From positions 1-64,000 of the forward strand of contig DYHH01000022.1 of NCBI GenBank assembly GCA_020724265.1: a DNA stretch of 64,000 nucleotides, given 5' to 3'. Positions 5,959 to 61,512 of this stretch are shown in pieces. Below the pieces are notes generated by a model, which did not search any database, was not told the DNA's origin, and saw only the letters and a program-made list of their open reading frames with translations. Source of the stretch: Melioribacter roseus (GTDB lineage Bacteria > Bacteroidota > Ignavibacteria > Ignavibacteriales > Melioribacteraceae). The translations under genes were made by a program, and so were the position numbers. Positions within the stretch are counted from its first letter, which is position 1, and each line of letters opens with the position of its first letter.

Positions 5959-5985
5959 TAAACTAATCAACACTACCTCCGATAA
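5959..5985 (+). promoter_or_regulatory. Sigma-28 promoter of flagellin 2
   Basis: TAAACTAA, 11 bases, then TCCGATAA closely matches the FliA consensus TAAAGTTT-N11-GCCGATAA. Transcription would start near 5992-5995, giving a leader of about 100 bases before the ATG at 6095. Confidence 0.8.
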
Positions 5986-6053
5986 TGTAACTGAGAACAA
6001 GATCAAAAAGTCATTAGCCAGTTGACAAAAGAGATCTTAAAAACATTAAACAA

Positions 6054-6067
6054 TGGCAAGGACGCCA
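6054..6067 (+). promoter_or_regulatory. Candidate CsrA-binding hairpin in the flagellin 2 leader
   Basis: TGGC (6054-6057) pairs with GCCA (6064-6067), presenting AAGGAC in a 6-base loop. A GGA in a small hairpin loop is the classic CsrA target. A second GGA lies in the Shine-Dalgarno sequence AAGGAGG at 6083-6089, about 25 bases downstream, an arrangement like Bacillus subtilis hag. csrA and fliW are encoded at 54.9-55.5 kb. Binding itself is inference. Confidence 0.55.
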
Positions 6068-6094
6068 AAATAAACAAATAACAAGGAGGTTGTA

Positions 6095-6934
6095 ATGTCT
6101 TTCAGAATAGCATCAAACATCGGAGCGCTTGAAGCGTATAACGCTTTGGCAAAACTCAACTCGCAAACTCAAAAAGCACAGTTGAGATTAGCAACTCAAA
6201 AGAGAATCAACAGTGTTGCAGATGATACATCGGGATTCTCTATTGGTAAAGCTCTTGAAGCAAAGGTATCTTTAATGCAATCCGCACAAAAGAATGTCGG
6301 TTCTGCAAAAGATATGTTGTCAACAGCAGAAAACCAGTTGGTCAGTATTCGTGATATGATTACCCAAATCAAATCAAAAATTGCTGATTCAGGTAATGCT
6401 GCTGCAGATCTTAACTCATTAGCTGCCGACGTTAGAGCAATTGCAGATGAAATTAATAGTGCTATTAGCTCAACAAAATTCAACGATACGGAATTATTAA
6501 CTTCAACATCTGCTGCTGCCAGTGGCGGTATGGTATTCCAAACCGGAGTTGGTACATCAGAAACACTATCAACCGTATTCTCTGCTAATGTTGCTTTACA
6601 TGCTTCTGCAGTTTCTACCGATGTTGATACTCTTGTTAGCTCGGCTACAAGAAGTAACTTTACAGCTTTAGAAACTAACCTCAACACTTTCGAGACAACT
6701 GTTTCTTCTTCGCTCGGTAAAATTGGTAATTATCTGCAAAGGTTAGATGCTAAAGATGAATTTTTAACATCAGCTATAACAAATTCACAAGCATCTGTTT
6801 CCAGATTGTTCGACGCTGATATTGCACTTGAGCAATTAAATGCTACCAAATACTCAATAGGTGCACAAGCTGCTACTGCTATGGTTGCACAAATGAACTT
6901 TGCTCCGCAGCAAGTTCTACAATTATTCGGCTAA
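6095..6934 (+). CDS. fliC: Flagellin 2 (short, D0/D1 only)
   Basis: This 279-residue paralogue of flagellin 1 has near-identical terminal domains and differs mainly in residues ~140-205 and at scattered conservative positions. Many synonymous differences show that the duplication is not recent at the DNA level. It has its own sigma-28 promoter (5959-5985), a long leader with a possible CsrA hairpin, a strong AAGGAGG ribosome site and a strong downstream hairpin. It is therefore probably the bulk filament protein made after hook completion (inference). The C-terminus FAPQQVLQLFG is intact. Confidence 0.96.
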   Translation: MSFRIASNIGALEAYNALAKLNSQTQKAQLRLATQKRINSVADDTSGFSIGKALEAKVSLMQSAQKNVGSAKDMLSTAENQLVSIRDMITQIKSKIADSGNAAADLNSLAADVRAIADEINSAISSTKFNDTELLTSTSAAASGGMVFQTGVGTSETLSTVFSANVALHASAVSTDVDTLVSSATRSNFTALETNLNTFETTVSSSLGKIGNYLQRLDAKDEFLTSAITNSQASVSRLFDADIALEQLNATKYSIGAQAATAMVAQMNFAPQQVLQLFG

Positions 6935-6961
6935 TACAGCTTGATCTTTGTTTTCTTCTCG

Positions 6962-6986
6962 GCTCTCCCGGATATCCCGGGAGGGC
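6962..6986 (+). terminator. GC-rich terminator hairpin after flagellin 2
   Basis: GCTCTCCCGG (6962-6971) pairs with CCGGGAGGGC (6977-6986), 10 bp with one wobble and a 5-base loop, followed by TTTATT. This is the most GC-rich structure in its neighbourhood. fliS begins 26 bases later, so fliS-fliD expression may need leakage through it. Confidence 0.75.
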
Positions 6987-7012
6987 TTTATTAAAATATC
7001 AATGGAGTTTTT

Positions 7013-7351
7013 ATGTATTCTTCCGTTGCAAGTAGACCAAGAAACCGCGCTAATGCTTACTTGGTAAACGAAATTCGTGAATCATCGCAAGAAAAATTAC
7101 TTGTTAAACTATACGACTTTGCAATTGCTAATTGCAGGCAGCACAATATCGAAAAGACAAACAAAGCTCTTAATGAATTGATCTTCGGGCTCAGATTTGA
7201 TGAAGCCGAATTAGAAAAAATATCTACCGGACTTTTTCAACTTTATAATTTCTGTAAAGATCAAATGCGAAAAAGAAATTTTGATATTGTTGAAAGAATT
7301 CTTTCCGAATTAAAAGATACTTGGGTTGTTGTTCTTGAAGCAAAAAAATAA
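7013..7351 (+). CDS. fliS: Flagellin export chaperone FliS
   Basis: The 112-residue helical protein matches FliS: N-terminal ANAYLVNEI, then SSQEKLLVKLYDFAI, and the C-terminal DxVERILSELKDTW helix. FliS binds the disordered C-terminus of unfolded flagellin in the cytoplasm and delivers it to FlhA. It follows the flagellins and precedes fliD, the usual order. Its length is slightly short for the family. A TGGAG ribosome site precedes the ATG; no own promoter was found. Confidence 0.9.
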   Translation: MYSSVASRPRNRANAYLVNEIRESSQEKLLVKLYDFAIANCRQHNIEKTNKALNELIFGLRFDEAELEKISTGLFQLYNFCKDQMRKRNFDIVERILSELKDTWVVVLEAKK

Positions 7352-7369
7352 GATCCCTGGATAAGTAAA

Positions 7370-9154
7370 ATGCAAATTCTTTCCTCTTCACATATTAATG
7401 AGCTCATTTATAACTATAAAAATGTTGAGATAAAAAAAAGACTTTCTTCTATCCAAACGAAGAAAAATAATTTTTCTACGTTGAGCAAAACGTTGTCGGA
7501 AATCAGCACAAAAGTTACAACTCTTTTAAGTTCCTTATCCAATTTAAAATCAACATCAACGAGTTCAATCTTTAATGCTAAAACCGCAACTTCAAGTAAT
7601 TCAGAATTAGTTACAGCAAGCGCTGAAAATTCTGCAAGTATAGGCTCATATGAAATTGCCGTATCTCAATTAGCAAAAAATGATATGGTCATATCTTCCG
7701 ATCTCGATTCATCTGCGGTTTTAGGTCTTACAGGCAAACATACTTTTACTATAAATACCGGTGACGGTAGTAATCCCGATTATACAAGTACAGTTACTCT
7801 TGAATTGGATGGAACAGAAACTAATTTGTCATTACTTGAGAAAATATCTACTGCAATTAACACGGATTATGCCGAGGTTTCATCTACCGTGCAATCTGCT
7901 TCGGCTGATTATAGCGGTGGTGAAAGTTCTTTTATTATAAATGTGGGTGGTACAGAATATACTATTAATACCGTCGGAGGTGGAACTTATGAGGAACTTA
8001 TTGATGAATTAGTCGAAAAAATAAATTCCACTGCTAAAGGAGTAACCGCGGTTAAAATTTCCGATGACCCGGATACCGGGGATGTAAAACTTTCATTAAC
8101 CGCAACAAATACAAAAGACTATTTAACTATCTCCCACGAAGGAGGATTTGATTTAGTTTCACATTTAGGAATAGATATTGAAAAAGAAATCAGCGCTTCA
8201 GCAGTATTATCCGCTTCCTCTTTTACACCAAGTTCCGGGAAAGCTCAATTATCAATTACCTCGAAAAATTCCGGTCTTGATTTTAGAATAAAAAACATTG
8301 CAGATGAAACCGGTTCACAAATTCTTTCACAACTCGGATTAAATCTCGGGACCTCGCGTCCGTCATTTGATCAAACAGCATCACCTGATACAGCCGGTTT
8401 TGTTTATGCAGATATTACATCGGAAGGTAATAAACTTAACTCGAAATTCACTTTTAACAGTATCCAAATTCAAAATAGTTCTAATTCGGTTAATGATCTT
8501 GTTACCGGTGTAACCTTTAATCTAAAATCCGTTATGGATGATTCAGTATCCAATGTTAATATAAATATTCAAAATGATAACACTGCCATTAGAGATGAAG
8601 TAAACGATTTTATCAAAAAGTTCAATGAACTATATTTATTACTCAAAGATAAAACTAAGTCAACAGAAAGTTCGCGTGGTGTATTAAGGGGAGATTCGAC
8701 TACGCAATCTTTATTAAATACACTTAGAGCTGTTGGTTATTCAACTTATGGAGACGAAACAAACGAATTTCAGTTTCTTTCGCAAATTGGAATTAAGTTT
8801 GATGCAAACACCGGGTTATCTATTAGTGATTCAAATCTCTTCGACGAAAAGGTAAATTTTAATACTAATTCTGTTATAAACTTATTTAATTCGACGGATA
8901 ATGGGTTGGCAACAATTTTCCATAATTCACTTAACAATTTTGCCGGGGCTGATGGTTATCTCAGTCTATCGAAAACAAGCTACGATAATTCGGTTAAATA
9001 TTTCAGTGATCGTATTGACAGTATAACTACCAGTATTGATAAAAGTGCGGATATTCTTAGAAAAAGATATCAAATGCTTCAATCACAATATGCCGCTCTA
9101 TTAAGTAACCAATCCTTTTTTAGTTCCGGAGTAACAACGGATAATTATGGATAA
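7370..9154 (+). CDS. fliD: Filament cap protein FliD (HAP2)
   Basis: The 594-residue protein has a FliD N-terminal region (KKRLSSIQTKKNNFSTLSKTLSEI), a Ser/Thr-rich middle, and a C-terminal coiled-coil region (SKTSYDNSVKYFSDRIDSI, LRKRYQMLQSQYAAL). FliD caps the growing filament and folds exported flagellin. The middle portion carries FlgE/flagellin-hook-IN-like segments (for example IDTNYAEVSSTV-like sequence around residues 160-270), giving a longer cap than many (~450-480 residues). It lies 18 bases after fliS and overlaps the next start by 8 bases. Confidence 0.93.
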   Translation: MQILSSSHINELIYNYKNVEIKKRLSSIQTKKNNFSTLSKTLSEISTKVTTLLSSLSNLKSTSTSSIFNAKTATSSNSELVTASAENSASIGSYEIAVSQLAKNDMVISSDLDSSAVLGLTGKHTFTINTGDGSNPDYTSTVTLELDGTETNLSLLEKISTAINTDYAEVSSTVQSASADYSGGESSFIINVGGTEYTINTVGGGTYEELIDELVEKINSTAKGVTAVKISDDPDTGDVKLSLTATNTKDYLTISHEGGFDLVSHLGIDIEKEISASAVLSASSFTPSSGKAQLSITSKNSGLDFRIKNIADETGSQILSQLGLNLGTSRPSFDQTASPDTAGFVYADITSEGNKLNSKFTFNSIQIQNSSNSVNDLVTGVTFNLKSVMDDSVSNVNINIQNDNTAIRDEVNDFIKKFNELYLLLKDKTKSTESSRGVLRGDSTTQSLLNTLRAVGYSTYGDETNEFQFLSQIGIKFDANTGLSISDSNLFDEKVNFNTNSVINLFNSTDNGLATIFHNSLNNFAGADGYLSLSKTSYDNSVKYFSDRIDSITTSIDKSADILRKRYQMLQSQYAALLSNQSFFSSGVTTDNYG

Positions 9155-41427: not shown

Positions 41428-42048
41428 ATGTCTACTGAAGAGATGTGGACTGAATATAAGAAAAGCCCGACTACCGAATTGAAAAAACAAATAGTAGTTA
41501 ACTATACTAACCTGGTTCATTATGTTATTCATAATTCCAAGTTTATCAGCTACGATATTTTTGATGAAAGAGATTACTTTCAATTTGGTATTGAGGGTCT
41601 AAGTGAGGCAATTGACAGATTTGACCCTGAGTACGGTACCAAGTTCGAAACTTATGCAATTCAAAGAATCAGGGGAAAAGTTTTAGATGAGATTCGAAAA
41701 GTTCAAAGTAAATATAGAATACAAACCAATTCAAACGTACTGGCTACAAATCTTTCTCTTAATAAAAGTGTATCCGAGGAAGATAACTTTATGCTATACG
41801 AAGTAATTCCCGATGAGCTTGAAGAACCGGACGAAACAGTTGAAAATTTAGAAGCAAAAGAGTTGCTGATTGAAGCACTTGAAAAATTAGATGAAAGAGA
41901 CCGGCTTATCATCACACTTTATTATTACGAACATCTCAATTACAAAGAAATTGCGACAATACTTGGTATTACTGTTTCCCGTGTTTCACAGGTTCACACA
42001 AAAATAATTAATAAACTGAAATCAAAACTTGCTGACTTAGATGGTTAA
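41428..42048 (+). CDS. fliA: Sigma-28 factor FliA
   Basis: The 206-residue sigma factor is compact (usual ~240) but has region 2 (DYFQFGIEGLSEAIDRFDPEYGTKFETYAIQRIRGKVLDEIRK split into 2.2-2.4) and region 4 (LDERDRLIITLYYYEHLNYKEIATILGITVSRVSQVHTK). It directs the three sigma-28 promoters in the window and is held by FlgM. Control from a sigma-54 promoter places it in the middle tier. It overlaps the next gene by 8 bases. Confidence 0.94.
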   Translation: MSTEEMWTEYKKSPTTELKKQIVVNYTNLVHYVIHNSKFISYDIFDERDYFQFGIEGLSEAIDRFDPEYGTKFETYAIQRIRGKVLDEIRKVQSKYRIQTNSNVLATNLSLNKSVSEEDNFMLYEVIPDELEEPDETVENLEAKELLIEALEKLDERDRLIITLYYYEHLNYKEIATILGITVSRVSQVHTKIINKLKSKLADLDG

Positions 42049-42922
42049 CTTGAACGAAGAAATAGAAATCAAAAGAACCCTTTATAACAAACACCTTTCA
42101 AGAATAAGAAATCTTCCTTCCATTCCTTCGCTTATGCTTGAAGTATCAAGATTATTGGAAGATCCTAGAACAAGTGCAACTGAGTTAGGAAGAATAATTT
42201 CTCGAGATCAAGCTATGGTTGCAAAAGTTTTAATGGTGGCTAATTCTCCTCTTTACGGAATTCCACGAAAAGTTTCGACCGTAGAGTTTGCAATTGTAAT
42301 ATTAGGATTCAACCATATTAAAAATATTGTTGTTGCTCTTTCTGTTATGGATGCATTCCAAAGCACCAATAAACGAAAATGGAATAGAAACAAATTTTGG
42401 ACTCATTCGATTGCTATGGGTGTATTATCTAAACGAATTGCCGGCGACCTTGGATTTGGCAGAACCGGGGAGGCATTTACCGCAGGCTTGCTGCACGATC
42501 TTGGTATTTCTGCAATTCAAAGATATTTCCCCAATGAGTTTAATAGTATTCTTAAGCTTGTCGAAAATGAGAATATCAGACACATAACGGCAGAAAAAAT
42601 GACTATGGGATTAACACATGCAGAAATTGGTCAATTTTTAATTAACAATTGGAATCTACCTGAAAACCTTGCTAATGCAGTAAGATTTCATCATGAACCT
42701 TCAGAAGCGCAAGAAGAGACTATTCTTCCTTCAATTATTCACCTTGCTGATTTTATGACACAGAAATTCCGAAACGGAGACTTTGACTGGGATGAGAATT
42801 TAGAATTCGATCAGGGTATCATTAATAATCTGTCACTTGGTGACCCGGTTTATCTTAATTCATTCATTGATTCTTACAAAGAACTTTTTACCGAACATAT
42901 TAATAGTATACAATTATTCTAA
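42041..42922 (+). CDS. HDOD-domain protein 1
   Basis: The 293-residue HDOD protein begins its domain with LPSIPSLMLEVSRLLEDP and DQAMVAKVLMVANSPLYGI. It retains several HD-type residues: WTHS, LLHDLG, FHHEP and HLADF. HDOD proteins are signalling scaffolds, often linked with chemotaxis and c-di-GMP, and usually not hydrolases. Overlap with fliA implies co-translation. The next gene is a close paralogue. Confidence 0.88.
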   Translation: MVNLNEEIEIKRTLYNKHLSRIRNLPSIPSLMLEVSRLLEDPRTSATELGRIISRDQAMVAKVLMVANSPLYGIPRKVSTVEFAIVILGFNHIKNIVVALSVMDAFQSTNKRKWNRNKFWTHSIAMGVLSKRIAGDLGFGRTGEAFTAGLLHDLGISAIQRYFPNEFNSILKLVENENIRHITAEKMTMGLTHAEIGQFLINNWNLPENLANAVRFHHEPSEAQEETILPSIIHLADFMTQKFRNGDFDWDENLEFDQGIINNLSLGDPVYLNSFIDSYKELFTEHINSIQLF

Positions 42923-42935
42923 CTAAGAGATTGAT

Positions 42936-43814
42936 ATGGAAATAATTACGATGGAAAACAAAATTAAAAAAACCGAGGCCGTGCTTAACAATATAATCAA
43001 GCTTCATTCAATACCGCGGATATTAGCAGAGATATTAGAATATCTTAATACGGAATCAGTTAACAATACCAAGTTAAGTAAAATGATTCTCGGAGATCAA
43101 AGCTTAGCGACTAAAATTTTAGTAATTGCTAATTCTCCCCTATACGGTTTACATCGTAATGTAACAACAATCGATTTTGCGGTTATGGTTCTTGGTGTTG
43201 ATGAAATTAGAAATATTGTTTCTTCACTTACCGTGATGGATACTTTTAAAAACAAATCCGATGAATATTTAGATCAAGGAAAATTCTGGCAGCATTCATT
43301 TTTGGTTGGAAGTGTTGCAAAAAGAATTGCCGAAGACCTTTCATTAAGTTATGCCGGTGAAGTCTTTACCGCCGGTTTTCTACATGATATCGGACTGCCG
43401 GTAATCCATAAATATTTTCATTCGGCTTTCGTTAAAATTATGAATGATGTTGAAGGCAGCGGAACTAATTATATTTCAGCAGAAATCGATAATATCGGAT
43501 TATCTCATTGTGAAATTGCTTATAAAGTTTTGGATAAATGGAATTTACCGGTGATATTATGTGATATTACTAAACATCACCATGCACCGACCAAATCAGA
43601 AGATTTTTCCAAACAAGCCGCCATTGTTCATTTGGCTGATTTTACAACCAAGCATCTTAATATAGGTTCTTACTTCTGGGACAATGATTTACAGCTTGAT
43701 ATGAAAGCCCTTTCGGTATTAGGATTTAATGATGAAGAAAAAGTAATTCATCAAATTGAAAAATATACAGACGTACTAAATGCACAATTAGAAGCAACGA
43801 GGCACTTGGTTTGA
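42936..43814 (+). CDS. HDOD-domain protein 2 (tandem paralogue)
   Basis: The 292-residue protein mirrors HDOD protein 1 over its whole length: SIPRILAEILEYLNTE, DQSLATKILVIANSPLYGL, WQHS, FLHDIG, KHHHAP and HLADF. The pair arose by tandem duplication and has diverged considerably. Conservation of the HD residues in both copies suggests either a real metal site or strong structural constraint. The stop overlaps the next TTG start (TTGA). Confidence 0.88.
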   Translation: MEIITMENKIKKTEAVLNNIIKLHSIPRILAEILEYLNTESVNNTKLSKMILGDQSLATKILVIANSPLYGLHRNVTTIDFAVMVLGVDEIRNIVSSLTVMDTFKNKSDEYLDQGKFWQHSFLVGSVAKRIAEDLSLSYAGEVFTAGFLHDIGLPVIHKYFHSAFVKIMNDVEGSGTNYISAEIDNIGLSHCEIAYKVLDKWNLPVILCDITKHHHAPTKSEDFSKQAAIVHLADFTTKHLNIGSYFWDNDLQLDMKALSVLGFNDEEKVIHQIEKYTDVLNAQLEATRHLV

Positions 43815-45091
43815 GAATAATAAAACAAAATACACGTGAGTTTCCATCATTTTATTCAACACTTGTTACTAACAATAAGTTGAAAAGAAAACCAACAATC
43901 GACGAGAGTCCCGTGAAGTTCAACAACAAACACGAAGAGCTTTTTGAATCTCTTTATACTTACGGAAGAAAAATAAGGGAAACAAATAACATCTCTCTTA
44001 TTAATGATTACTTAAAAACATCATTGAAGAAATTTATTGATATTTCCGAAATTGTATTGTTTCATAAACAAAAAGACGATGTTAACCCCATACCGCTTAC
44101 CAAAAATTGTAAAGAGAACACCGTGAACTTCGTAATTGCCATCAAAGAAGACGGCATACTTCAAAAAATATTGAACCGCAGTAATCTTGCAATAATTCCC
44201 ACAAGAGATAAAAATTCGCAAGTTTATAATTACTTTTTAATTTATCCGATAATAGATATAGATAGATCCAACCAATACTTTTTACTTATTAATACTAAAG
44301 AGAAGCATTTTGAAAGCGGGACATTCAAACGAAAAGTTCTACAATCATTTATTCAGATGTTTGTACCGCGAGTTGAATATCTTCTTCAGAAACAAGACCT
44401 GAGCCAAACTTATGACGAACTTCAAGTCTACCAATCAAAGATTTCAAATGATTATAAGTTATCGGCTATTGGAGAAATGACTTATTCAATGATAAATCAG
44501 ATTATATCACCCATGCAGGTAGTACTTAGCTGTGTAGATATACTCGAAAACAATAACGGCGGCAGTGATAAAATCGTCAACACAATTAAAACACAAGTGA
44601 AAAAAGTACAATCTATTACCGATAAGATTGCCAAATTCTCCAACGATGAACAGGCAAGAATATCGGTTCTCCCCTGTTCGTTAAATGCATTCGTTAACAA
44701 GTTTCATGATTTTATTAAGACATCTTTAAATAAAAATAATTACGAACTTCTATTGGATCTTGAGAATAATCTTCCGCCAATTTTAAGTACACCGAATTAT
44801 ATTCAACAGATTCTGACAAATACTTTTAGTTTGATGGTAAGTACATCAGATACCGGCGGAATTTATCTCCAGACCAAATACTTCAATAACAATGTAATAT
44901 TAAGAATTATTTCAACGGATCATTCTAATATTAAAACCGACGAAAAAACAAACTACAACAAGAATATCAACTTATTAATGTTAGAGACATTAATGAAAAA
45001 GCACGAAGGAAGTGCGAAATTCATTTCAGATAGTTCCAGCGGTTCCAGTTTAGAATTAATTTTTCCATTAAAACGGAAGCTGTTGAAATGA
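43811..45091 (+). CDS. Degenerate histidine-kinase-like protein
   Basis: The 426-residue protein starts at TTG overlapping the HDOD 2 stop. An N-terminal half with GAF-like character (residues ~40-190) leads into a coiled coil and a DHp-like helix (SAIGEMTYSMINQIISPMQVVLS) where the usual His is Asn (N229). The ATPase-like region (IQQILTNTFSLMVSTS) lacks clear N and G1 motifs. A pseudokinase that dimerises with or inhibits another kinase is likely. No membrane segment. Confidence 0.75.
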   Translation: MRIIKQNTREFPSFYSTLVTNNKLKRKPTIDESPVKFNNKHEELFESLYTYGRKIRETNNISLINDYLKTSLKKFIDISEIVLFHKQKDDVNPIPLTKNCKENTVNFVIAIKEDGILQKILNRSNLAIIPTRDKNSQVYNYFLIYPIIDIDRSNQYFLLINTKEKHFESGTFKRKVLQSFIQMFVPRVEYLLQKQDLSQTYDELQVYQSKISNDYKLSAIGEMTYSMINQIISPMQVVLSCVDILENNNGGSDKIVNTIKTQVKKVQSITDKIAKFSNDEQARISVLPCSLNAFVNKFHDFIKTSLNKNNYELLLDLENNLPPILSTPNYIQQILTNTFSLMVSTSDTGGIYLQTKYFNNNVILRIISTDHSNIKTDEKTNYNKNINLLMLETLMKKHEGSAKFISDSSSGSSLELIFPLKRKLLK

Positions 45092-52168: not shown

Positions 52169-53416
52169 ATGAGAATATCCGATCTATTAATGAACAAAAC
52201 ATATTTGAACGGAATTGCCAACAATAAAAGCAGGATGGATTTGTTAAGCAAGCAGATAGCAAGTCAATCTTCCATTCTAAAACCATCCGATTCACCTATT
52301 GGAACAGCGCGAGTATTACGTCTTGAAGATAAACTTTCCAATACCGATCTCTACATGAAAAATATTCAGAAAAGTTTCGGCTTTGTCAATGAAACAATTA
52401 GAGGTATGGAATCTATAGAAACAGAGATTACAAATATTTTAGTTAAGCTAACCGAAGCTAATAACCCGATTAATAGTGAGAACCGGGCTAATTATGCAGA
52501 TCAATTAGAGCATGCATTAAACAGCATATTAACTTCGGCTAACATGAGTTATGACGGCAAATACGTATTCGGAGGAACATCATTTTCGGCTCAGCCTTTT
52601 GTATTAAGTAGTGACAAATCCGCAGTGCTTCAAAATGTAAATGATATTAGCGGTAAGTCACTTGTTAAAATCGGCAACAGTGTTAACTTAAAAACTAATA
52701 TCTCCGGTGCAGAACTTTTTGGGACCATACTTACACAGCAAGGTTCGTTTAATTCCGGGGATGCAGTTGGTTCGATTACCGGCACAAATCAAACTGTATA
52801 TGATGCATACGGAAATCAATTTAATCTTAATTTAGAATACGAAAAAGTATCGGATAAAGAGTATAAACTAAATTATTTTATTGTTGACAGCGACAGCAAC
52901 CCGGTCAAATCCGATTCTTTGAATTTATCTTTTGATGAATATTCCGGTAATCTAATCGAAATTAACGGATCAAGTGCAACTGAAATTTCAATAAACAGTT
53001 CTTCCCATAAATTGAATATCATTTTAGACTTAAATGCTATCGGGATTAGTTCAACTTCCACTTCAATATCCGTTTCGGCAAATCAGGAAAGAGATATTTT
53101 CAATACCATAATAAAAATTCGTGATGACCTAAAGAACGGACTAAATGTTAACGATAATGATATTAACGATATAAAAATTTTTCATCAGAGATTATTAAAC
53201 AGAATGTCGGAAGCAGGCTATACATATAACACACTTGATAATACTAACTCGCTTTTAGACAATCAACGAATAGAAATTGAAAGTATGATTTCTGCCGAAA
53301 AAGATGTTGATATTGCAAAAGCAATTATTGAAATGCAGAATTATGATTACCTACTACAAGTTTCATATAAAATGTCTGCAATGATTCTTCCTAAATCACT
53401 ATTGGATTTCTTATGA
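52169..53416 (+). CDS. flgL: Hook-filament junction protein FlgL with hook-like insert
   Basis: The 415-residue protein is about 100 residues longer than usual. Flagellin-like termini are present (RMDLLSKQIASQSSILKPSDSPIGTARVLRLE; VDIAKAIIEMQNYDYLLQVSYK). Residues ~205-295 hold a beta-rich module (QTVYDAYGNQFNLNLEYEKV, SLNLSFDEYSGNLIEI) that looks like the D2 module of FlgE. It joins FlgK to flagellin. The stop overlaps motA (ATGA). Confidence 0.92.
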   Translation: MRISDLLMNKTYLNGIANNKSRMDLLSKQIASQSSILKPSDSPIGTARVLRLEDKLSNTDLYMKNIQKSFGFVNETIRGMESIETEITNILVKLTEANNPINSENRANYADQLEHALNSILTSANMSYDGKYVFGGTSFSAQPFVLSSDKSAVLQNVNDISGKSLVKIGNSVNLKTNISGAELFGTILTQQGSFNSGDAVGSITGTNQTVYDAYGNQFNLNLEYEKVSDKEYKLNYFIVDSDSNPVKSDSLNLSFDEYSGNLIEINGSSATEISINSSSHKLNIILDLNAIGISSTSTSISVSANQERDIFNTIIKIRDDLKNGLNVNDNDINDIKIFHQRLLNRMSEAGYTYNTLDNTNSLLDNQRIEIESMISAEKDVDIAKAIIEMQNYDYLLQVSYKMSAMILPKSLLDFL

Positions 53417-54198
53417 TGAGAATGTACGGAGGGATATTAGGTTTATCGTTAGGTGTACTTTCAATTTTTGGAGCCTTTCTACTTGAAGGAGGCTCTCTTA
53501 AAGCTTTGTTCTTAATAGCACCTATAATAATTGTTTTCGGCGGTACTTTTGCAGCTACTATAATTGGTTTCGGGATGGAAAAGTTTACATCAATATTCAA
53601 GTTAATTAAAATCGCCTATTTCCCGCGGAAGTACGATTTGAAAGGTTTAATTAACTCTTACTTTTCAATATCGATAAAAGCACGAAAAGAAGGTTTGCTT
53701 GCTATCGAAAAAGAATTGAATACTTTGAATTATGCGTTCCCGAAGAAAATGGTTCGATACGGTATTGACGGGACAGATGCAAATATGCTTGAAGACATTG
53801 CAAGATTGGAAATGAAACTTGTACAGGAAAGACATTTAGCAAATGTAACAATATTTAACAAAATGGGTGGATACGCACCGACAATGGGAATACTGGGAAC
53901 AGTAATGGCGTTAATTATGACTTTGGCAAATGCCGGTTCCGATCCCGATTTATTAATTAAGAATATTGCCACTGCATTTATTGCAACCCTTTGGGGAGTA
54001 CTAAGTGCAAATTTAATTTGGCTGCCTATTGGAGATAGATTAAAAGAATGTCATTTAGAAGAAAAACATATGATGGAGATTTCTCTGGAGGGCACAATAG
54101 CACTCTTGAGCGGCGAGATTCCTTCGATCCTAAAAGCAAGGTTAGTAGGAATGCTTCCGCAAAAAGAACAAAGAGAGCTGCTCGAGTTCCGGATTTAG
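53413..54198 (+). CDS. motA: Stator protein MotA, first set
   Basis: The 261-residue protein has four transmembrane helices, the cytoplasmic loop between TM2 and TM3 (YFPRKYDLKGLINSYFSISIKA), and NKMGGYAPTMGILGTVMALIMTL near TM3. It forms the stator with the downstream motB. ATG 53413 overlaps the flgL stop. Confidence 0.94.
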   Translation: MMRMYGGILGLSLGVLSIFGAFLLEGGSLKALFLIAPIIIVFGGTFAATIIGFGMEKFTSIFKLIKIAYFPRKYDLKGLINSYFSISIKARKEGLLAIEKELNTLNYAFPKKMVRYGIDGTDANMLEDIARLEMKLVQERHLANVTIFNKMGGYAPTMGILGTVMALIMTLANAGSDPDLLIKNIATAFIATLWGVLSANLIWLPIGDRLKECHLEEKHMMEISLEGTIALLSGEIPSILKARLVGMLPQKEQRELLEFRI

Positions 54199-54210
54199 AG
54201 GATAATCTTT

Positions 54211-54863
54211 ATGCAGAAGAAAATAACGATAAGGACAGGTACTTAATTACTTATGCCGATCTTATAACTCTTTTGCTCGGTTTGTTCATAATTCTTTATG
54301 CTATCTCGAATATTGACTTAATGAAATATGAAAAAATGATGAATGCAATTGGAAGCGTGTTCGGTGGTGCAAATGTTATTAACAGTGAAACAATTGGAAA
54401 CAAAGTCTCTGTGCAACCGATTGACAAGCTTAAATCCGAACTCAGCAACTTAATTGAAAAACATAATTACGGAAGTTCTATTTCGGTAGAACAAAACGAA
54501 AGAGGAATAACACTTCATATTATGGATGAAATATTATTCCCTTCCGGTAGTGCGGTATTGAATGAAAATTCTCAAGTTGTTCTTAATAAAATTGCAGATA
54601 TAATACGTAAGCTTCCTAATGATATACGGGTTGAAGGACATACGGACAATGTTCCGATCAAAAGCAGTTTATATCCTTCTAATTGGCATCTTTCGGTTGC
54701 AAGAGCATTAAATACGGCTTACTATTTAATTGAAAAAGAAAATCTTAATCCCGATAAGGTTTCTATTGTCGGTTATTCGGAATACCAACCGGTAGAAACA
54801 AATTTAACTCTAACGGGAAGAGCAAAAAACAGAAGAGTAGACATAGTAATCATTAACAAATAG
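54211..54863 (+). CDS. motB: Stator protein MotB, first set, with a frame problem at its start
   Basis: The body has the proton/sodium-binding Asp in ITYADLITLLLGLFI, a plug region and a C-terminal OmpA peptidoglycan-binding domain (RVEGHTDNVPIKSSLYPSNWHLSVARALNTA). The best start is ATG 54211, 8 bases after AGAGGA and 12 after the motA stop. However that ATG is in another frame and stops after 11 codons; one extra A in the A-run at 54220-54223 would join it to NNDKDRYLITYADL. The only in-frame ATG is 54048, deep inside motA. Coordinates assume the 54211 start; the ion type is unknown. Confidence 0.8.
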
Positions 54864-55266: not shown

Positions 55267-55518
55267 ATGTTAGTACTCAATAGAAAAAATAATGAGGAAA
55301 TTAGAATTGGCGGCGATATAATTATTAAAATAATTAGCGTATCCGACGGTAATGTAAAACTTGGAATCGAAGCCCCGGCTGAAACAGCTATACTCCGCGG
55401 TGAACTTTATAATAATGTAAAAGAAAATATAATCTTGGCATCTAAAGAAAGCGGACAAAGTTTAACGGCTTCAAAATCCTTTACAATTAATAAGCTTGGA
55501 AAATCTAACAATGAATGA
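55267..55518 (+). CDS. csrA: Translational regulator CsrA
   Basis: The 83-residue RNA-binding protein starts MLVLNRKNNEEIRIGG and has the second RNA-contact region APAETAILRGELY with the conserved Arg. The C-terminal tail is extended by about 20 residues. CsrA binds GGA motifs near ribosome sites; candidates here are the flagellin 2 and flgE leaders. It overlaps the next gene by 8 bases. Confidence 0.95.
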   Translation: MLVLNRKNNEEIRIGGDIIIKIISVSDGNVKLGIEAPAETAILRGELYNNVKENIILASKESGQSLTASKSFTINKLGKSNNE

Positions 55519-56236
55519 CTCCGATAAAAAATTTAAAATATTGGTTGTGGATGATTCCGACTTGATCCTTCATGCATTAAAAAACTTTTTTAGGGAATAT
55601 CAATTGGAAGTTGTTACTTGTCATGACGGACTCGAAGGAGTTCAGCAAGCAATAGAGATAAAACCGACACTTATAATTTTAGATCTCTTGATGCCTAATC
55701 TTGACGGTGTTAAGATGCTTAAAGTTATTAAACTTATGAAAGACGTGAAGGATATACCCGTAATTGTTATTAGCGGCAATACAAATAAAAGAAATGTTTT
55801 AGCTGCCATTGAAGCCGGTGCGGAAAAAGTTTTATCGAAACCATTAAAAAAGGAGCTGCTCAAAAAAAGTATTTCGGAAGTTTTAGGACCGGAGTTTCTT
55901 AAAAAAGTAAAAAAACCCGAATCAACTTCTCTTTCTAAAGATGATAAGGAATTTATTTACGAGCTGCGTCAATATTTTATAAATGGTTTTTCCAGTAAAA
56001 TAGAATTAATGAAAGAAGTTTTCAGAAAAGAAGATATGGGAAATCTCAGATTTGTTTTTCACGAGTTGAAAGGTTCGGGTTCAACAATCGGTTTACCCGA
56101 ATTATCACAAATCGGTGAAGAAGTTGAACAGAAAATCGATAGTAAAATAAAAGATTGGGATTACTATAAACAAAGATGGGATGAAGTTCTCGATCTTGTT
56201 GAAGAAATTAAAAAAGAACAAGCAGCCTTGGATTAA
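55511..56236 (+). CDS. Receiver-HPt protein
   Basis: The 241-residue protein starts at ATG 55511. The receiver domain (VVDDSDLILHALKNF, LIILDLLMPNLDG, LSKPLKKE) is followed by an HPt domain with RFVFHELKGSGSTIG and the acceptor H184. REC-HPt proteins act as intermediates in multistep phosphorelays. It lies 2 bases before the second motA and overlaps csrA, so it is translated with the stator genes. No DNA-binding or enzyme output domain. Confidence 0.88.
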   Translation: MNDSDKKFKILVVDDSDLILHALKNFFREYQLEVVTCHDGLEGVQQAIEIKPTLIILDLLMPNLDGVKMLKVIKLMKDVKDIPVIVISGNTNKRNVLAAIEAGAEKVLSKPLKKELLKKSISEVLGPEFLKKVKKPESTSLSKDDKEFIYELRQYFINGFSSKIELMKEVFRKEDMGNLRFVFHELKGSGSTIGLPELSQIGEEVEQKIDSKIKDWDYYKQRWDEVLDLVEEIKKEQAALD

Positions 56237-56238
56237 TT

Positions 56239-57096
56239 ATGCTTATTATTATTGGAATACTTATTGTCGCAGTTTCTGTTGTGGTAGGATTTATCATGGC
56301 GGGCGGTAATTTAATTTTACTGCTGCAGTGGGCTGAGTTCGTAGTAATAGGAGGTGCAGCTATTGGTAGTTTTATTATTGCTACACCCATTTCTCAAATA
56401 AAAAAGGTTGTCAAATCAATACCCGAAGCAATAAAAGGAAATCATTTTTCCAAGCAGGATTATTTGGAATTATTGAAAGCATTTAACGATTTGTTTCTGA
56501 TTGCACAAAGGGACGGCTTACTCGCAATTGAAAGTCATGTAGAAAATCCGGACGAAAGTGAAATACTATCAAGAAGTAAAAAATTTATCAGCAATAGTTA
56601 TATGAAGAATTTTTTCTGTGATACACTTAAGGTTATGTTATCAGGTGGTGTTCCTCCCCATGAATTAGATTCTTTAATGGATATGGAATTAGAAACTTAT
56701 GAACTTGAAAACCACCCGGTAAGTAATTCAGTTGCAAAAGTGGGAGATGCTTTACCCGGGTTGGGAATTGTAGCCGCTGTACTCGGAATAATTGTTACAA
56801 TGAGTCATATTGATGACGGAGCCGCTGCCGTTGGAGCTCATGTTGCCGCAGCTTTGGTTGGAACATTCTTAGGCGTATTACTTTCTTACGGTTTTGTTAA
56901 TCCGCTTGCAGTAAGTATCGAAAACCTTAACGAACATAAAGGAAGATACTTGCATACAATAAAAGCCTGCATCTTAGCTTATGCAAAAGGTAATCCTCCT
57001 ATTGTTGCCGTTGAAATTGCAAGAAGAACAATTTTTTCCGATGACAGACCTACTTTTTCGGAATTGGAAAATTATATGAGAGGAAAGACTGAATAA
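56239..57096 (+). CDS. motA: Stator protein MotA, second set
   Basis: The 285-residue protein has four transmembrane helices, IAQRDGLLAIESHVENPDES in the cytoplasmic loop, and VGDALPGLGIVAAVLGIIVTMSH at TM3. It is only distantly similar to the first MotA and resembles the enteric type. The stop overlaps motB 2 (TAATG). Confidence 0.94.
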   Translation: MLIIIGILIVAVSVVVGFIMAGGNLILLLQWAEFVVIGGAAIGSFIIATPISQIKKVVKSIPEAIKGNHFSKQDYLELLKAFNDLFLIAQRDGLLAIESHVENPDESEILSRSKKFISNSYMKNFFCDTLKVMLSGGVPPHELDSLMDMELETYELENHPVSNSVAKVGDALPGLGIVAAVLGIIVTMSHIDDGAAAVGAHVAAALVGTFLGVLLSYGFVNPLAVSIENLNEHKGRYLHTIKACILAYAKGNPPIVAVEIARRTIFSDDRPTFSELENYMRGKTE

Positions 57097-57869
57097 TGGC
57101 ACAGAACGATAATTCGGAACAACCGATAATAATTAAGAAAATTAAGAAGGGCGGCGGTCATCACGGTGGTGCCTGGAAAGTTGCTTATGCAGATTTTGTT
57201 ACTGCAATGATGGCTCTTTTTATTGTTCTTTGGATTTTAAGTGCCGGAGAAGATGTTAAACAAGCCGTTGCGGGTTATTTCAAAGATCCTGTTGGATTTC
57301 AATCCGGCGGAGGTAAACTGATTAATACAAACCCTCAGTTAAATTTGCTTGACGAGAACATACTGCGAGAAAGAGAATTAAAGGAAATGCAGAGAAAGAA
57401 ATTTGAAAAAATGCAACAGGAAATAATGAATCAGCTTTCCGATAATGAAAGTCTTAGTTTTCTTTTAGACCAGGTTAAATTTGAAATGACCGATGAAGGG
57501 TTAAGAATTGAAATGATTGATTCCTCAAAAGATGTCTTTTTTAGACTTGGTAGTTCACAATTAAAAAATGAAGCGGCAATTATTCTAAATAAAATAGGTT
57601 CAGAAATTAACAAGCTTCCTAATAAAGTTGCGATTGAAGGTCACACTGATATAAGACCTTTTAATCACGGTTCTCTGGAGTACACAAACTATGAGCTTAG
57701 TGCTGACAGAGCTAACTCGGCAAGAAGAGCTCTATTAAAAGGCGGTTTGGATGAATCTCAAATTGAAGAAATACGCGGCTATGCTGCAAATAGATTACGG
57801 GATCAGGATGATCCGTACAACCTAGTCAATAGAAGAATAAGTATTGTTATAAAATATTCAGAGAAATAA
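57096..57869 (+). CDS. motB: Stator protein MotB, second set
   Basis: The 257-residue protein starts with a basic, Gly/His-rich stretch (KKIKKGGGHHGGAWKVAYADF), then the ion-binding Asp in YADFVTAMMALFIVLW, a helical linker and a C-terminal OmpA-like domain (VAIEGHTDIRPFN, YELSADRANSARRALLKGG). It matches the enteric MotB style and differs from the first MotB. One-base overlaps with genes on both sides. Confidence 0.95.
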   Translation: MAQNDNSEQPIIIKKIKKGGGHHGGAWKVAYADFVTAMMALFIVLWILSAGEDVKQAVAGYFKDPVGFQSGGGKLINTNPQLNLLDENILRERELKEMQRKKFEKMQQEIMNQLSDNESLSFLLDQVKFEMTDEGLRIEMIDSSKDVFFRLGSSQLKNEAAIILNKIGSEINKLPNKVAIEGHTDIRPFNHGSLEYTNYELSADRANSARRALLKGGLDESQIEEIRGYAANRLRDQDDPYNLVNRRISIVIKYSEK

Positions 57870-58264
57870 TGAAAACAAAAATTGCCATAATGGAAGACGA
57901 TCCGTTTACTAAGCATCTGTATTCAATGCTGATGAAAAAAGCCGGTTATGAAGCTTATATTTTAGAAGATGCTAATCTCCTTTTGCAGAAGCTGGAAGAG
58001 GAGAACATTGTGTTGATAATCATGGATATCAACTTGCGAAATACATATCTTAATGATGAAAAAATAGATGGTATCCGTCTGACTAAACACATTAAATCTC
58101 AAGAAAGATTTTCTTCTATTCCTGTAATTTTGGTATCTGCTTTTTCATTTATGGCTGATAAAAACAGTATACTGGAAGAAAGCAAAGCTCACCAATATAT
58201 TACTAAGCCGATAACTGATTTTAATGCCTTTATTAACACAATAAATGAAACGATTGTAAATTGA
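57869..58264 (+). CDS. Single-domain response regulator after motB 2
   Basis: The 131-residue receiver has MEDDPFTKHLY, the acceptor in LIIMDINLRNT and the Lys of YITKPI. A ~8-residue insertion after the acceptor loop (YLNDEKIDG) distinguishes it from CheY. It shares the stop/start base with motB 2, which implies coupled synthesis with the stator. It is unlikely to be motor CheY. Confidence 0.85.
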   Translation: MKTKIAIMEDDPFTKHLYSMLMKKAGYEAYILEDANLLLQKLEEENIVLIIMDINLRNTYLNDEKIDGIRLTKHIKSQERFSSIPVILVSAFSFMADKNSILEESKAHQYITKPITDFNAFINTINETIVN

Positions 58265-58932
58265 ATGAAAAATGGAAAATATTAATTGTTGAAGATGAAG
58301 CCGATACAGCTTATATACTCGGTTTACTTCTCAAAAAGAACAACTTTGAAATTAAGATAGCTAAAAACGGGCAGGAAGCCCTTGAAGTGATAGATGAATT
58401 TATGCCGAGGGTTGTTATTGCCGACTGGAATATGCCTGTTATGAACGGGCTTGAGCTATGTGAAAGAATGAAAAGTTCGGATAAATATAAACTGATTTAT
58501 TTCATTATTCTTACCGCAAGGTCTACATTACAAGACAGGGTTAAAGGGCTTGATGTCGGTGCCGATGACTTTTTACTTAAGCCGATTGAAAACCAAGAAC
58601 TTTTAGCCAGGATACGTACCGGAATAAGGATTCACAACCTCCAAAACGAGTTAAGAAAAATTGAGCACAGCAAAGCTTTAATTGAAATGGCTACCACTAT
58701 TGGTCATAAGATTAACAATCCCCTCAGCAGCCTGGTCATTTCACTCGATAATATTAAAGCTGAATTAGGGAATTCGGAATTGACAAAAAATATTTCCGAT
58801 GATTATAAAATCATTGAAGAATCAATTAAAAAAATACAAATTCTTGCTAAAGATCTTACCCACCTCCAGCAGCCTGAATTAATTCAGTATGCGGAAAATA
58901 AAAATATGCTCAATCTTCCTGATTCCGACTAA
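58261..58932 (+). CDS. Receiver plus DHp-like helix without ATPase
   Basis: The 223-residue protein starts at TTG overlapping the previous stop (TTGA). A canonical receiver (VEDEADTAYIL, VVIADWNMPVMNG, LLKPIENQ) is followed by a coiled coil and a kinase-like H-box (MATTIGHKINNPLSSLVISLDNI, H149). No ATP-binding domain follows. The His half could accept a phosphoryl group from another kinase, Spo0B-like, or serve as a dimerisation helix. Confidence 0.82.
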   Translation: MNEKWKILIVEDEADTAYILGLLLKKNNFEIKIAKNGQEALEVIDEFMPRVVIADWNMPVMNGLELCERMKSSDKYKLIYFIILTARSTLQDRVKGLDVGADDFLLKPIENQELLARIRTGIRIHNLQNELRKIEHSKALIEMATTIGHKINNPLSSLVISLDNIKAELGNSELTKNISDDYKIIEESIKKIQILAKDLTHLQQPELIQYAENKNMLNLPDSD

Positions 58933-58952
58933 TTTTCAAACTCTCTTTACAC

Positions 58953-58979
58953 TTAACTTTTAATAATTTCGTTCGATAA
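58953..58979 (+). promoter_or_regulatory. Sigma-28 promoter of the orphan/PAS-kinase unit
   Basis: TTAACTTT, 11 bases, TTCGATAA matches the FliA consensus closely (6 of 8 in the -35, 6 of 8 in the -10). The gene start at 58995 is only 15 bases after the -10 box, so the leader is a few bases long. Confidence 0.75.
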
Positions 58980-58994
58980 TAAAGTGGTAACTTT

Positions 58995-59648
58995 ATGTTA
59001 AAAGGAATAGAAAATATTAAATCCGGTTCCGGTGCCGAGAACTCCAGCAAAAATATCTACAAGAAATTTCTCGCCAATTCAACCCTAAGACAACTGGATT
59101 CTCACGATAGTTTAAACATTTCCAAAGGATACAGAATTCTTAAGGAATACAACATCGACTTAAAGAGATTCAAGAAAAATGAGCATGGACTCCTAGAAAT
59201 AATTTTTGACATTAGCGCTATTGAATTCAGTACCCTGCTAAACTTAGATAATCTTACAAACTATATTAAGTTGGATTATAAACTCAATTTAATTAACGAG
59301 CCGGATACGTTTGTAGTATCCATCTCAACGAGAACCTATTATTCGGAGAACATAGATAATTACTTAAAGATAAACGATATAGTTTACCTGATGAGCAGAA
59401 TTAAATCGCTTAATGTCGGAAGCGAAATTAATTTATCAAACACCCGCGCACTCAGTAATTTATTGGACGGTGTTTATAATGCAGTACTTTCGGAGTTTAA
59501 TATGATAAACTCCATCCTGGTTAAAGCAACAAAAAATATTTTTAATATTAGTATTAAAATACTGCCGTTAAGCGAACTTGAAAACGAACTTTTACTCATT
59601 GAAAAAATTATACCTTCAAATGAACACAGTATCCAGATTACTCAATAA
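58995..59648 (+). CDS. Unrecognised 217-residue protein under sigma-28 control
   Basis: The soluble protein has a Ser/Asn-rich N-terminus and mixed alpha/beta remainder (LKEYNIDLKRFKKNEHGLLEI, TRALSNLLDGVYNAVLSEFN). It has no signal peptide and no recognised motif. It overlaps the next gene, a PAS kinase, by about 29 bases. The sigma-28 promoter ties it to late flagellar functions. Confidence 0.7.
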   Translation: MLKGIENIKSGSGAENSSKNIYKKFLANSTLRQLDSHDSLNISKGYRILKEYNIDLKRFKKNEHGLLEIIFDISAIEFSTLLNLDNLTNYIKLDYKLNLINEPDTFVVSISTRTYYSENIDNYLKINDIVYLMSRIKSLNVGSEINLSNTRALSNLLDGVYNAVLSEFNMINSILVKATKNIFNISIKILPLSELENELLLIEKIIPSNEHSIQITQ

Positions 59649-61512
59649 TATTACCGATAAGCGGATGGATGTATTAAGCGCTGACCAAATTGTTAATCCA
59701 ACAAAGAATGGAAATTTTATTATTGTTGATGAAGAAGGAATGATTCAGTATAAAAGTGATGATTGTTTTATAGATTTTTATGTAGAAAATAATATCAAGT
59801 CTATTTCGGAAATTCAGACAGATCCCGACTTAACACTCATTCTTAAAGGAATGAAATACAACAAAACCGAAAGACTATCCATCGAATTGTTGATTTATTT
59901 TTTAAACAATACCGAAGTAAAGGATTACGTTGTTCAAATCAGTAAAATTACTCTCCTAAAAAAGAAACTCTTTTTATTATTTTTTGAAGAAAACAAAGAA
60001 TACAAAGTTTTCGAGAATAAAATTAATACACTTCAGTTTGCTTTGGAAAAAGGAAACATCCCGGTTTTAATAGCAGATGAAGATTACAAGACAAAATATA
60101 TCACTCAAAATTTTGAAGAGATATTCGACAAAAACATTGAAGACCTCTACGATAGACCATTAAGTGAAGTACTTATTGATTTCTTAAAAGAAAGTGATGA
60201 ATCTATTCTTCTCCATGCAATTGAATCAAAATCCGTTTGGTCAAAAGTAATTAACTTAAAAAAACCGAACGGTACCAATTCATTTTATGATATCAACATG
60301 ACGCCGGTTTTTGATTCAGCACTCGGAACCTGGAATTATATACTAAGTGCTTATAATATAACCGACCATATTTTGAAGAACAGAACTCTAAAAAAGAGTG
60401 AGGCTCGGTTACGCGCTATTATCAATAATATATCCGACGGACTTTTTGTCCTTAGAAAACAGAAAAATGAATTAACATTTGAAATCGGCAATGATATTTT
60501 CTTCGAGCTATTCAATATCGGCACTAAAGATTATGAGCAAATAAAGATTGATGACTATCTTGATCCCAAAGCCTTGGAAATTATTAATGATTCGATATCG
60601 GTAATAGAAACATCCAAAGTAAAGTACTTAACAGATAATTATCATCAAACCGGGACGGATAAGCATTTCGAAATCAGCACTACGTTTGTTGAAGATAAAT
60701 TGGACGAAGAAAGATTTTATATTATAACACTTCATGATATTACCGCCAAAGAAAAGTATGAACGGCACTTAGAGTCTGCATACGTAAAAGAGAAAGAATT
60801 AAACCGTCTCAAAACCTTGATATTGCACAACATGTCCCATGAACTAAGAACACCCGCTAATGCAATGATGGGTTACACGGAAATAATTGAAGATGCGATA
60901 AACGAAAAAGATTATGAAACCGTCTCGCAGATAAGCACATCGGTTAAGGAAATACTTGGAAAACTAATAAACCTTTTCAGCAATATTATAGAACTTGCCG
61001 GTATCGAATCAGGTGAATATGAGCTTGACATTGTTAGAATAAACTGCAACCAGGTATTGCAAAGCGTTTATAATAAAAGAATTGACGATGCTGAAAGAAA
61101 AAATCTGAATTTTGTAATTGATACAAAAGACCGCAGTTTATTTATAAAAACAGATTGGGTTAAATTTGAGAAAATTATTTGCGAACTTGTAGATAATGCA
61201 ATAAAATTCACTTCTGAAGGTAGTGTAAAAATCGAGTCTTACCTGAATGAATTAAATGAAGCCGAAATTAAAATTACAGATACAGGTAACGGAATTGAAG
61301 ACTCGTGTCTTAAAAAAATACTTGAACCATTCCAGCAAGAAGATGAATTTTATACAAGAAGATACGAAGGAAGCGGTTTGGGAATAACTATCTCTTATAA
61401 GTTGACATCAATTTTAGGTGGAAAATTCTTTATTGAAAGCAGAAAAAAAGTCGGAACTGTTATTAAATTAACATTTCCGTCTGTTTCCCCGAAACCAACA
61501 ATTGAATTATAA
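59620..61512 (+). CDS. PAS-domain sensor histidine kinase
   Basis: The ~630-residue cytoplasmic kinase starts at ATG 59620 (alternative ATG 59665). Two or three PAS-like segments span residues ~20-390 (for example IVDEEGMIQYKSDDCFIDF, KSEARLRAIINNISDGLFVL). The DHp H-box HNMSHELRTPANAMMGYTEI has H407; the ATPase has VDNAIKFTSEG, DTGNGIED and GSGLGITISYKL. It has no receiver, so it may pass phosphate to the nearby REC-DHp, REC-HPt or REC proteins. Confidence 0.9.
   Translation: MNTVSRLLNNITDKRMDVLSADQIVNPTKNGNFIIVDEEGMIQYKSDDCFIDFYVENNIKSISEIQTDPDLTLILKGMKYNKTERLSIELLIYFLNNTEVKDYVVQISKITLLKKKLFLLFFEENKEYKVFENKINTLQFALEKGNIPVLIADEDYKTKYITQNFEEIFDKNIEDLYDRPLSEVLIDFLKESDESILLHAIESKSVWSKVINLKKPNGTNSFYDINMTPVFDSALGTWNYILSAYNITDHILKNRTLKKSEARLRAIINNISDGLFVLRKQKNELTFEIGNDIFFELFNIGTKDYEQIKIDDYLDPKALEIINDSISVIETSKVKYLTDNYHQTGTDKHFEISTTFVEDKLDEERFYIITLHDITAKEKYERHLESAYVKEKELNRLKTLILHNMSHELRTPANAMMGYTEIIEDAINEKDYETVSQISTSVKEILGKLINLFSNIIELAGIESGEYELDIVRINCNQVLQSVYNKRIDDAERKNLNFVIDTKDRSLFIKTDWVKFEKIICELVDNAIKFTSEGSVKIESYLNELNEAEIKITDTGNGIEDSCLKKILEPFQQEDEFYTRRYEGSGLGITISYKLTSILGGKFFIESRKKVGTVIKLTFPSVSPKPTIEL

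Follow-up and report, generated by a model that had tools for sequence, protein, structure and literature searches.

A candidate split phosphorelay encoded around the second flagellar stator pair of Melioribacter roseus

Gene Organization of the Second Stator Locus

The window considered here, bases 1–64,000 of contig 25 in the 3.77 Mb genome of Melioribacter roseus, is filled by a large flagellar and chemotaxis cluster (judged by eye), within which the genes for a second stator pair, motA2 and motB2, lie among genes encoding the parts of a His-Asp phosphorelay. From 53413 onward, and all on the forward strand, the order is motA1-motB1-fliW-csrA-(REC-HPt)-motA2-motB2-REC-(REC-DHp)-orf217-(PAS kinase)-cheW, so that both stator pairs occupy one stretch and motA1-motB1-fliW-csrA stands directly upstream of the run that begins with REC-HPt and motA2 (Table 1). 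Because the stator genes share one operon-like run with the relay proteins across the order Ignavibacteriales, these proteins are good candidates for direct tuning of the motA2-type stator.

The run was checked by reading frames, by sequence and by Pfam, and all three agree. An earlier note on this DNA had described REC-HPt, motA2, motB2, REC and REC-DHp as overlapping or lying within 2 bases of one another, which the frames and sequence bear out; the overlaps of 8, 1, 1 and 4 bases and the gap of 2 between csrA and REC-DHp fit translational coupling, and a gap of 62 bases separates REC-DHp from orf217. Its statement that none of the relay proteins has a DNA-binding domain agrees with Pfam, which finds none in them, and the kinase, receiver, HPt and terminal receiver that it listed are all present with their catalytic residues kept. 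It was also right to set the arrangement apart from a standard CheA/CheY system: that set lies separately in the window (by eye, and by HPt and ATPase matches), the kinase is of the PAS-HisKA type, and the receivers of REC-HPt and the stand-alone REC fall outside the CheY clades. The note placed the PAS kinase under sigma-28 control and described it as having no receiver; the latter point stands by Pfam, and the former needs correction, since the sigma-28-like box precedes orf217, a 217-residue gene that the note had passed over, and the kinase follows by overlap.

Table 1. Features of the second stator locus and the preceding stator pair (positions in the window).
Feature	Position	Strand	Remarks
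csrA	55267..55518	+	8-base overlap with REC-HPt
REC-HPt	55511..56236	+	ATG start; Pfam Response_reg 86.1 bits, Hpt 37 bits; alignment
REC-HPt codons	phospho-Asp 55682-55684; HPt His 56060-56062	+	
motA2, stator subunit	56239..57096	+	NCBIfam TIGR03818 MotA, over cut-off; 2-base gap after REC-HPt
motB2	57096..57869	+	plug and OmpA domain; 1-base overlap with motA2
stand-alone REC	57869..58264	+	Response_reg 56.4 bits; 1-base overlap with motB2
stand-alone REC phospho-Asp codon	58025-58027	+	alignment
REC-DHp	58261..58932	+	TTG start; receiver and His-bearing helical hairpin, no ATPase domain; 4-base overlap with REC
REC-DHp codons	phospho-Asp 58423-58425; H-box His 58705-58707	+	
sigma-28-like -10 box, TTCGATAAT	58972..58980	+	ends 14 bases before the orf217 start codon
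orf217	58995..59648	+	conserved, flagellum-linked, 217 amino acids
PAS-HisKA-HATPase kinase, no receiver	59623..61512	+	Pfam PAS, HisKA, HATPase_c; overlaps the end of orf217
kinase starts and codon	likely ATG 59623; longest frame TTG 59578; phospho-His codon 60838-60840	+	
motA1-motB1, first stator pair	53413..54863	+	best NCBIfam PRK08124/PRK09109 and PRK09038 MotD, all below cut-offs

Conservation of the Linkage within the Order

Conservation was followed in the order Ignavibacteriales as defined by record titles, using 64 loci that comprise the window, 28 relatives, 12 more genomes of the order and 23 public loci taken from the best 80 matches listed (loci and genomes are denoted below by L and G numbers). 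Eleven loci in which the last 200 residues of MotA2 are identical to those of another locus were dropped, leaving 53 that are distinct by this filter alone, so that near-identical loci may remain among them; loci cut by contig ends were kept. In all 53 the gene directly upstream of motA2 is REC-HPt (its frame is broken in L072), and the complete eight-gene string from csrA through REC-HPt, motA2, motB2, REC, REC-DHp and orf217 to the kinase is found in 40. The 13 incomplete strings reflect contig ends (L069, L081, L136), displacement of REC-DHp (L082, L088) or of orf217 and the kinase (L084, L086), recognition, with REC not recognised in L085 and the kinase/orf217 slot unrecognised or different in L077, L121 and L149, and broken frames (L072, L151). 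Gene order is kept across 32 genera, 25 with motA2 among the relatives and 7 further, which is more than chance would give. The linkage whose conservation in other genomes the earlier note had proposed to look for is indeed there, so the note's own ground for refutation, an absence of conserved linkage, does not apply. Behind the kinase synteny falls, with cheW in the window's own genus and a 610-residue gene or others in most other loci, and this fall can be taken as a rough background control.

Co-occurrence was assessed in 39 relatives, the window's own genome included. The gene motA2 is present in 29 of them, and these are also the ones with full-length REC-HPt (its frame is broken in G011); the best REC-HPt matches in the 10 relatives without motA2 are weak (E 1e-12 to 5e-17) and consist of receivers or the tails of large frames. 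REC-DHp, at 54% identity or above, occurs in 28 of the 29 motA2 genomes (missing in G022, which is 68% complete) and in none of the 10 others, and the same counts hold for orf217 (missing in G007, 88% complete), which among the 39 relatives was found only together with motA2.

The conserved place of the sigma-28-like box before orf217 is seen in 41 of 48 order loci, where a CGATAAT-like box lies no more than 45 bases from the orf217 start. It is this place alone that counts; in the window as a whole the box is not special by number, since allowing one mismatch gives 51 matches where 45 are expected. The window's orf217 protein has no Pfam and no NCBIfam match, and over 20 members there were eight weak Pfam matches, each in 1 of the 20, with a best E of 0.0026. 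Sequence matches in the PDB were led by 14-3-3 helices (best E 0.02), Foldseek gave no match at E 0.001, and the best VIA-align Z, 5.1 to p32/C1QBP, is at a level that the tool classes as uninformative. The family conserves D-S and S-P residues near positions 38–44, and its low-confidence N-terminus is followed by an alpha-beta domain that is predicted with confidence and has no clear structural counterpart. In G025, the stretch before the displaced orf217 (L217, 2617–3404) encodes small proteins resembling, by eye, an anti-sigma antagonist and an anti-sigma kinase.

REC-HPt, the Kinase and the Stand-Alone Receiver

The residues expected of a working relay are largely retained. In an alignment of 29 REC-HPt sequences the receiver Asp and Lys are present in all 29 and the HPt His in 26, and an H-x-x-x-G motif is found in 48 of the 53 order loci. 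All 26 aligned sequences of the stand-alone REC retain the acidic residues, the Asp and the Lys, and the N-L-x-N-T loop that follows the phospho-Asp is kept in at least 23 of 26 at each position; for the kinase, 40 of 42 rows contain the box S-H-E-x-R-T-P. On a tree, the stand-alone REC and the REC-HPt receivers fall in clades apart from CheY1 and CheY2.

Over its whole length REC-HPt can be aligned to the tail of BarA, which has the same two domains (residues 4–236 on 664–912 of 920; 77.8 bits), a score far below the cut-off of the whole-protein model, as expected for a fragment, and it also aligns end to end with the tail of LetS; these alignments suggest that the kinase and REC-HPt are a split tripartite kinase. 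Two class relatives outside the order (L095, L155) support this, since they are arranged as REC-HPt, motA2, motB2, REC-HD, a kinase with its own receiver, REC and a second kinase-like protein with a receiver, and on the tree the receivers of their REC-HPt and REC join the proteins of the order (support 100/97 and 100/99). The unorthodox tripartite kinases (BarA, LetS, TorS, ArcB) likewise hold kinase, receiver and HPt in series, and REC-HPt corresponds to the BarA/LetS tail by alignment. Here, in contrast, kinase and REC-HPt are separate proteins that flank the stator pair, the window's kinase lacks the receiver that the L095 kinase possesses, and Pfam finds no DNA-binding domain in the candidate outputs.

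Paralogues of REC-HPt, 37–38% identical, are encoded behind genes that by eye resemble those of a cytochrome bd oxidase in two genomes of one genus (L210, 7707–8435, and L211, 7905–8633; G025 and G027), and a third copy is present in G029 (L212).

HD-Domain Proteins behind the Stator outside the Order

A search of 395 genomes of the phylum gave strong matches to motA2 (E of 1e-79 or lower) inside the class alone, the best elsewhere having an E of 1.7e-14. Gene order was read at 27 such loci, which come from 25 genomes of the class that lie outside the order. An HD-domain protein stands directly behind motB2 in 23 of them, 19 with a recognisable receiver; the four without an HD protein are L113, L115, L112, in which motB2 is unrecognised, and L117, which ends there. 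REC-HPt lies upstream of the stator in a single case (L095). Since 15 of the 23 loci with an HD protein show no gene of the flgK-flgL-motA1-fliW-csrA block within the 10–15 kb read, the HD protein goes with the stator pair and not with the flagellar block. The receiver protein behind motB2 thus accompanies the stator even away from that block, which strengthens the link to the stator. The HD domains themselves look degenerate: in eight aligned rows HE replaces HD in four and neither is present in four, and a later HH pair is changed, judged against the canonical HD motif.

A further 57 loci (L153–L209), two of which were dropped as motA2 duplicates, gave 55 distinct ones that come from among the best 80 matches listed and so yield no frequencies. 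Among these listed matches, in 13 of the 55 the stator is followed by HD or REC-HD (in L154 no motB2 is recognised in the interval), in one by a plain receiver encoded on the same strand (L167), and in the rest by no such match directly. The same arrangement is seen under record titles naming Syntrophorhabdus, Syntrophorhabdaceae and Deltaproteobacteria (L157, L162, L186, L202), which as titles of metagenome bins may be wrong, and an HD domain without a clear receiver is seen in L161 and L170. Directly upstream of motA2-motB2-HD in L094, L101, L102, L105, L107, L110 and others outside the order lies a gene of about 550 codons, which in L101 encodes a TPR protein by Pfam and, by its start, possibly a lipoprotein.

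The Nature and Origin of REC-DHp

The Pfam match of REC-DHp to Response_reg is strong (95.5 bits) and that to HisKA, at 21.4 bits, lies below the cut-off of 26.9, so the DHp label rests also on the H-box and on a predicted helical hairpin. In the structure model a receiver is joined to a long hairpin (residues 124–169 and 173–200), with a mean pLDDT for the whole of 72, which is moderate confidence. The phospho-Asp is invariant in 22 rows, and the H-box His and the Asn four residues after it are present in 48 of 48 readable rows, a count that omits loci without an adjacent REC-DHp of under 260 residues and L071, whose frame starts late. Canonical HisKA kinases use an acidic residue at +1 after the His for autophosphorylation; in REC-DHp that residue is acidic in 2 of 48 rows and Lys in 33. 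As Pfam finds no ATPase domain (and no HD domain either), and the acidic residue is so rarely present, REC-DHp probably does not serve as a kinase-like step. Instead it has the look of a module for phosphotransfer or for phosphatase activity that stands in place of an HD domain, and not of a kinase remnant. Phosphotransferases of the Spo0B/ChpT type have a DHp-like His module without kinase activity, from which REC-DHp differs in being fused to a receiver and in having no ATPase remnant.

The genome contains a second protein of this architecture, a receiver with a DHp-like hairpin 33% identical to REC-DHp, whose gene follows that of a hybrid kinase on contig 16 and has counterparts in relatives that lack motA2. 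This is a second use of the architecture. In line at this place (L214, contig 16: 40000–56000, at 3935–8445) are REC, a HAMP/GAF hybrid kinase with receivers and the REC-DHp paralogue, behind unassigned genes of 526, 307 and 416 codons; similar loci (L215, L216) occur in relatives without motA2. A move of this paralogue to the stator was considered as the origin of the stator REC-DHp, and the receiver tree speaks against it: over 131 columns, the receivers of REC-DHp and REC-HD proteins at stators form one group (98/94), and the contig-16-type paralogues fall outside. Background receivers are few in this tree, which includes 17 of the 32 REC-HD rows used in the tree with CheY1 and CheY2, and some of its branches are long. 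Because the receivers group with REC-HD and not with the paralogue, the most economical account is that of a receiver that remained at the stator while its output domain was exchanged. The REC-HD (HD-GYP-type) proteins are alike in standing directly behind motB2, often overlapping it, and in having a receiver related to that of REC-DHp; they differ in that their output is a degenerate-looking HD domain where here it is a DHp hairpin, and among REC-HD loci REC-HPt is found only in L095 and L155.

Two Stator Types and Known Ways of Tuning the Motor

MotA2 exceeds the cut-off of NCBIfam TIGR03818 (337.6 against 303.8). The best models for MotA1 are PRK08124 and PRK09109 (Bacillus-type MotA and MotC), and the best for MotB1 is MotD, all below cut-off. 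The set resembles MotAB and MotCD of Pseudomonas aeruginosa, with two stator types per cell, one being of the MotA type and the other having a MotB with its best score against MotD. In that dual-stator motor the binding of a regulator uncouples one stator, and FlgZ is a cyclic di-GMP (c-di-GMP) protein of the PilZ kind, according to a 2022 review (PMC9039648). The present locus differs from FlgZ/YcgR stator brakes in that no PilZ match was found by Pfam in the locus proteins, which carry receivers instead. The same review asks how stator selection is regulated and expects stator-binding regulators that are not necessarily c-di-GMP proteins (PMC9039648).

Receivers that tune the motor outside classical chemotaxis are known from the Cle proteins of Caulobacter, CheY-like proteins that bind the flagellar switch, bind c-di-GMP through an Arg-rich peptide and do not need phosphorylation for activation (PMC5677366). 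The stand-alone REC has no such tail, its last 22 residues being without Arg, and it sits with a kinase and an HPt; from CheA/CheY the locus differs in its receivers, outside the CheY clade on the tree, and in its PAS-HisKA kinase. Among the matches listed, no title or abstract opening in the open literature described a stator pair that is encoded together with, or acted on by, a receiver, an HPt or a phosphorelay, subscription journals being mostly outside that scope.

A Proposed Relay and Its Alternatives

The proposal builds on gene order and overlaps, domain content, conserved catalytic residues, co-occurrence with motA2 and the presence of a receiver protein behind the stator in much of the class; from these we infer the direction of phosphate flow, the specificity of the partners, the stator as target and an effect on torque or stator choice. 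Phosphate would pass from the His of the PAS kinase to the receiver Asp of REC-HPt, from there to the protein's own HPt His, and then to the Asp of the stand-alone REC, of the REC-DHp receiver, or of both. The phosphorylated terminal receivers may bind MotA2B2 or its rotor interface, such that the number of MotA2B2 units driving the motor would change without transcription, and REC-DHp, with its His and Asn and no ATPase, may pass on or remove phosphate (by Spo0B-like transfer or as a phosphatase), setting the off-rate. We give an even chance to the view that the second-stator operon encodes a flagellum-dedicated, split four-step His-Asp phosphorelay that acts post-translationally on the MotA2B2 stator or the motor. 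The narrower version, in which the terminal receivers bind and gate one of the two stators directly, amounting to phosphorylation-controlled stator selection, seems less likely than not. Over evolutionary time the receiver behind motB2 may have been the constant element in much of the class, its output swapped from HD to DHp and an HPt and kinase added, by which a simple regulator would have become a four-step relay.

Several observations weigh against this proposal. Within the order, the 10 relatives without motA2 have no MotA match and are thus probably non-flagellated, so the test there shows dependence on flagella and not on this stator in particular: a link to motA2 looks no different here from a link to flagella in general, and the genomes compared are not independent. 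The linkage is strong and not absolute, since G023 and G031 carry REC-DHp at another place, and in G025 and G027 orf217 is encoded some 28 and 30 kb further along (with the kinase beside it in G025, L217). Paralogues of REC-HPt stand away from stators in G025, G027 and G029, and weak REC-HPt-like tails of large frames occur in G028 and G037, both without motA2. The HPt motif was not found in five of the 53 order loci (L069, L081, L085, L137 and, with a broken frame, L072). Lastly, covariation between kinase and receivers, computed over the 39 loci that hold all four proteins and so from too few sequences, singled out no partner of the kinase. Means at the expected interface were 0.078 for REC-HPt, 0.088 for REC and 0.127 for REC-DHp, with control regions at 0.036 to 0.083 (on these few loci); REC and REC-DHp exceed their two controls and REC-HPt does not (0.079, 0.060), its top-ten mean being below both. 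This weak trend favours REC and REC-DHp as partners of the kinase, contrary to the first step proposed.

Single receivers often act on the switch, as CheY does on FliM, and by eye che genes lie in the same window, so the receivers could instead be additional CheY-like proteins working on the rotor switch or in chemotaxis, as the Cle proteins of Caulobacter bind the flagellar switch (PMC5677366), or could drain phosphate from CheA, with the stator genes as mere neighbours. We think this unlikely: REC and REC-HPt form clades apart from CheY1 and CheY2, an HD protein, mostly with a receiver, stands behind motB2 in 15 class loci with no flagellar-block genes nearby, and a phosphate sink would need neither kinase nor HPt. 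Control of flagellar gene expression or assembly through FliW-CsrA or FliA, and not of the motor, is suggested by the overlap of csrA with REC-HPt and the position of fliW next to csrA, by the sigma-28-like box before orf217 and the kinase, and by the displaced REC-DHp of G023 and G031, which lies behind a gene resembling, by eye, the window's sigma-28 gene (L218, L219; genomes of L082 and L088). It appears quite improbable, given that in nine distinct class loci (L091, L093, L098, L103, L106, L111, L153, L154, L156) csrA precedes motA2 with no REC-HPt between and REC-HD stands behind the stator, and that by Pfam no relay protein has a DNA-binding output. That REC-HPt is a general hub for the cell's hybrid kinases which happens to lie in a flagellar cluster would accord with its paralogues away from stators in three genomes and with the two HPt domains that Pfam finds in the whole genome, those of CheA and REC-HPt, against at least nine open frames with an ATPase domain followed by a receiver, such that other kinases may also feed REC-HPt, but we regard it as very unlikely, since full-length REC-HPt is found in none of the 10 relatives without motA2, nine of which (more than 90% complete) have 28 to 69 receiver matches each, and several of which carry other HPt proteins (5, 8 and 7 in G032, G033 and G038).

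Elsewhere in the window, behind the sigma-28 gene (42041–45091), lie genes for an HDOD protein (Pfam), a second similar-looking one and a 426-residue protein that has no Pfam match at E 0.001 and looks kinase-like by eye.

Returning to the relay proposed here, the locus is a conserved and compact candidate for a phosphorylation signal in stator selection. The relatives that have the stator with REC-HD only offer simpler versions for comparison, and because Stygiobacter electus strain 09-Me (L150), whose record is not titled as a metagenome assembly, carries the block, an organism in which the relay can be tested may be at hand.

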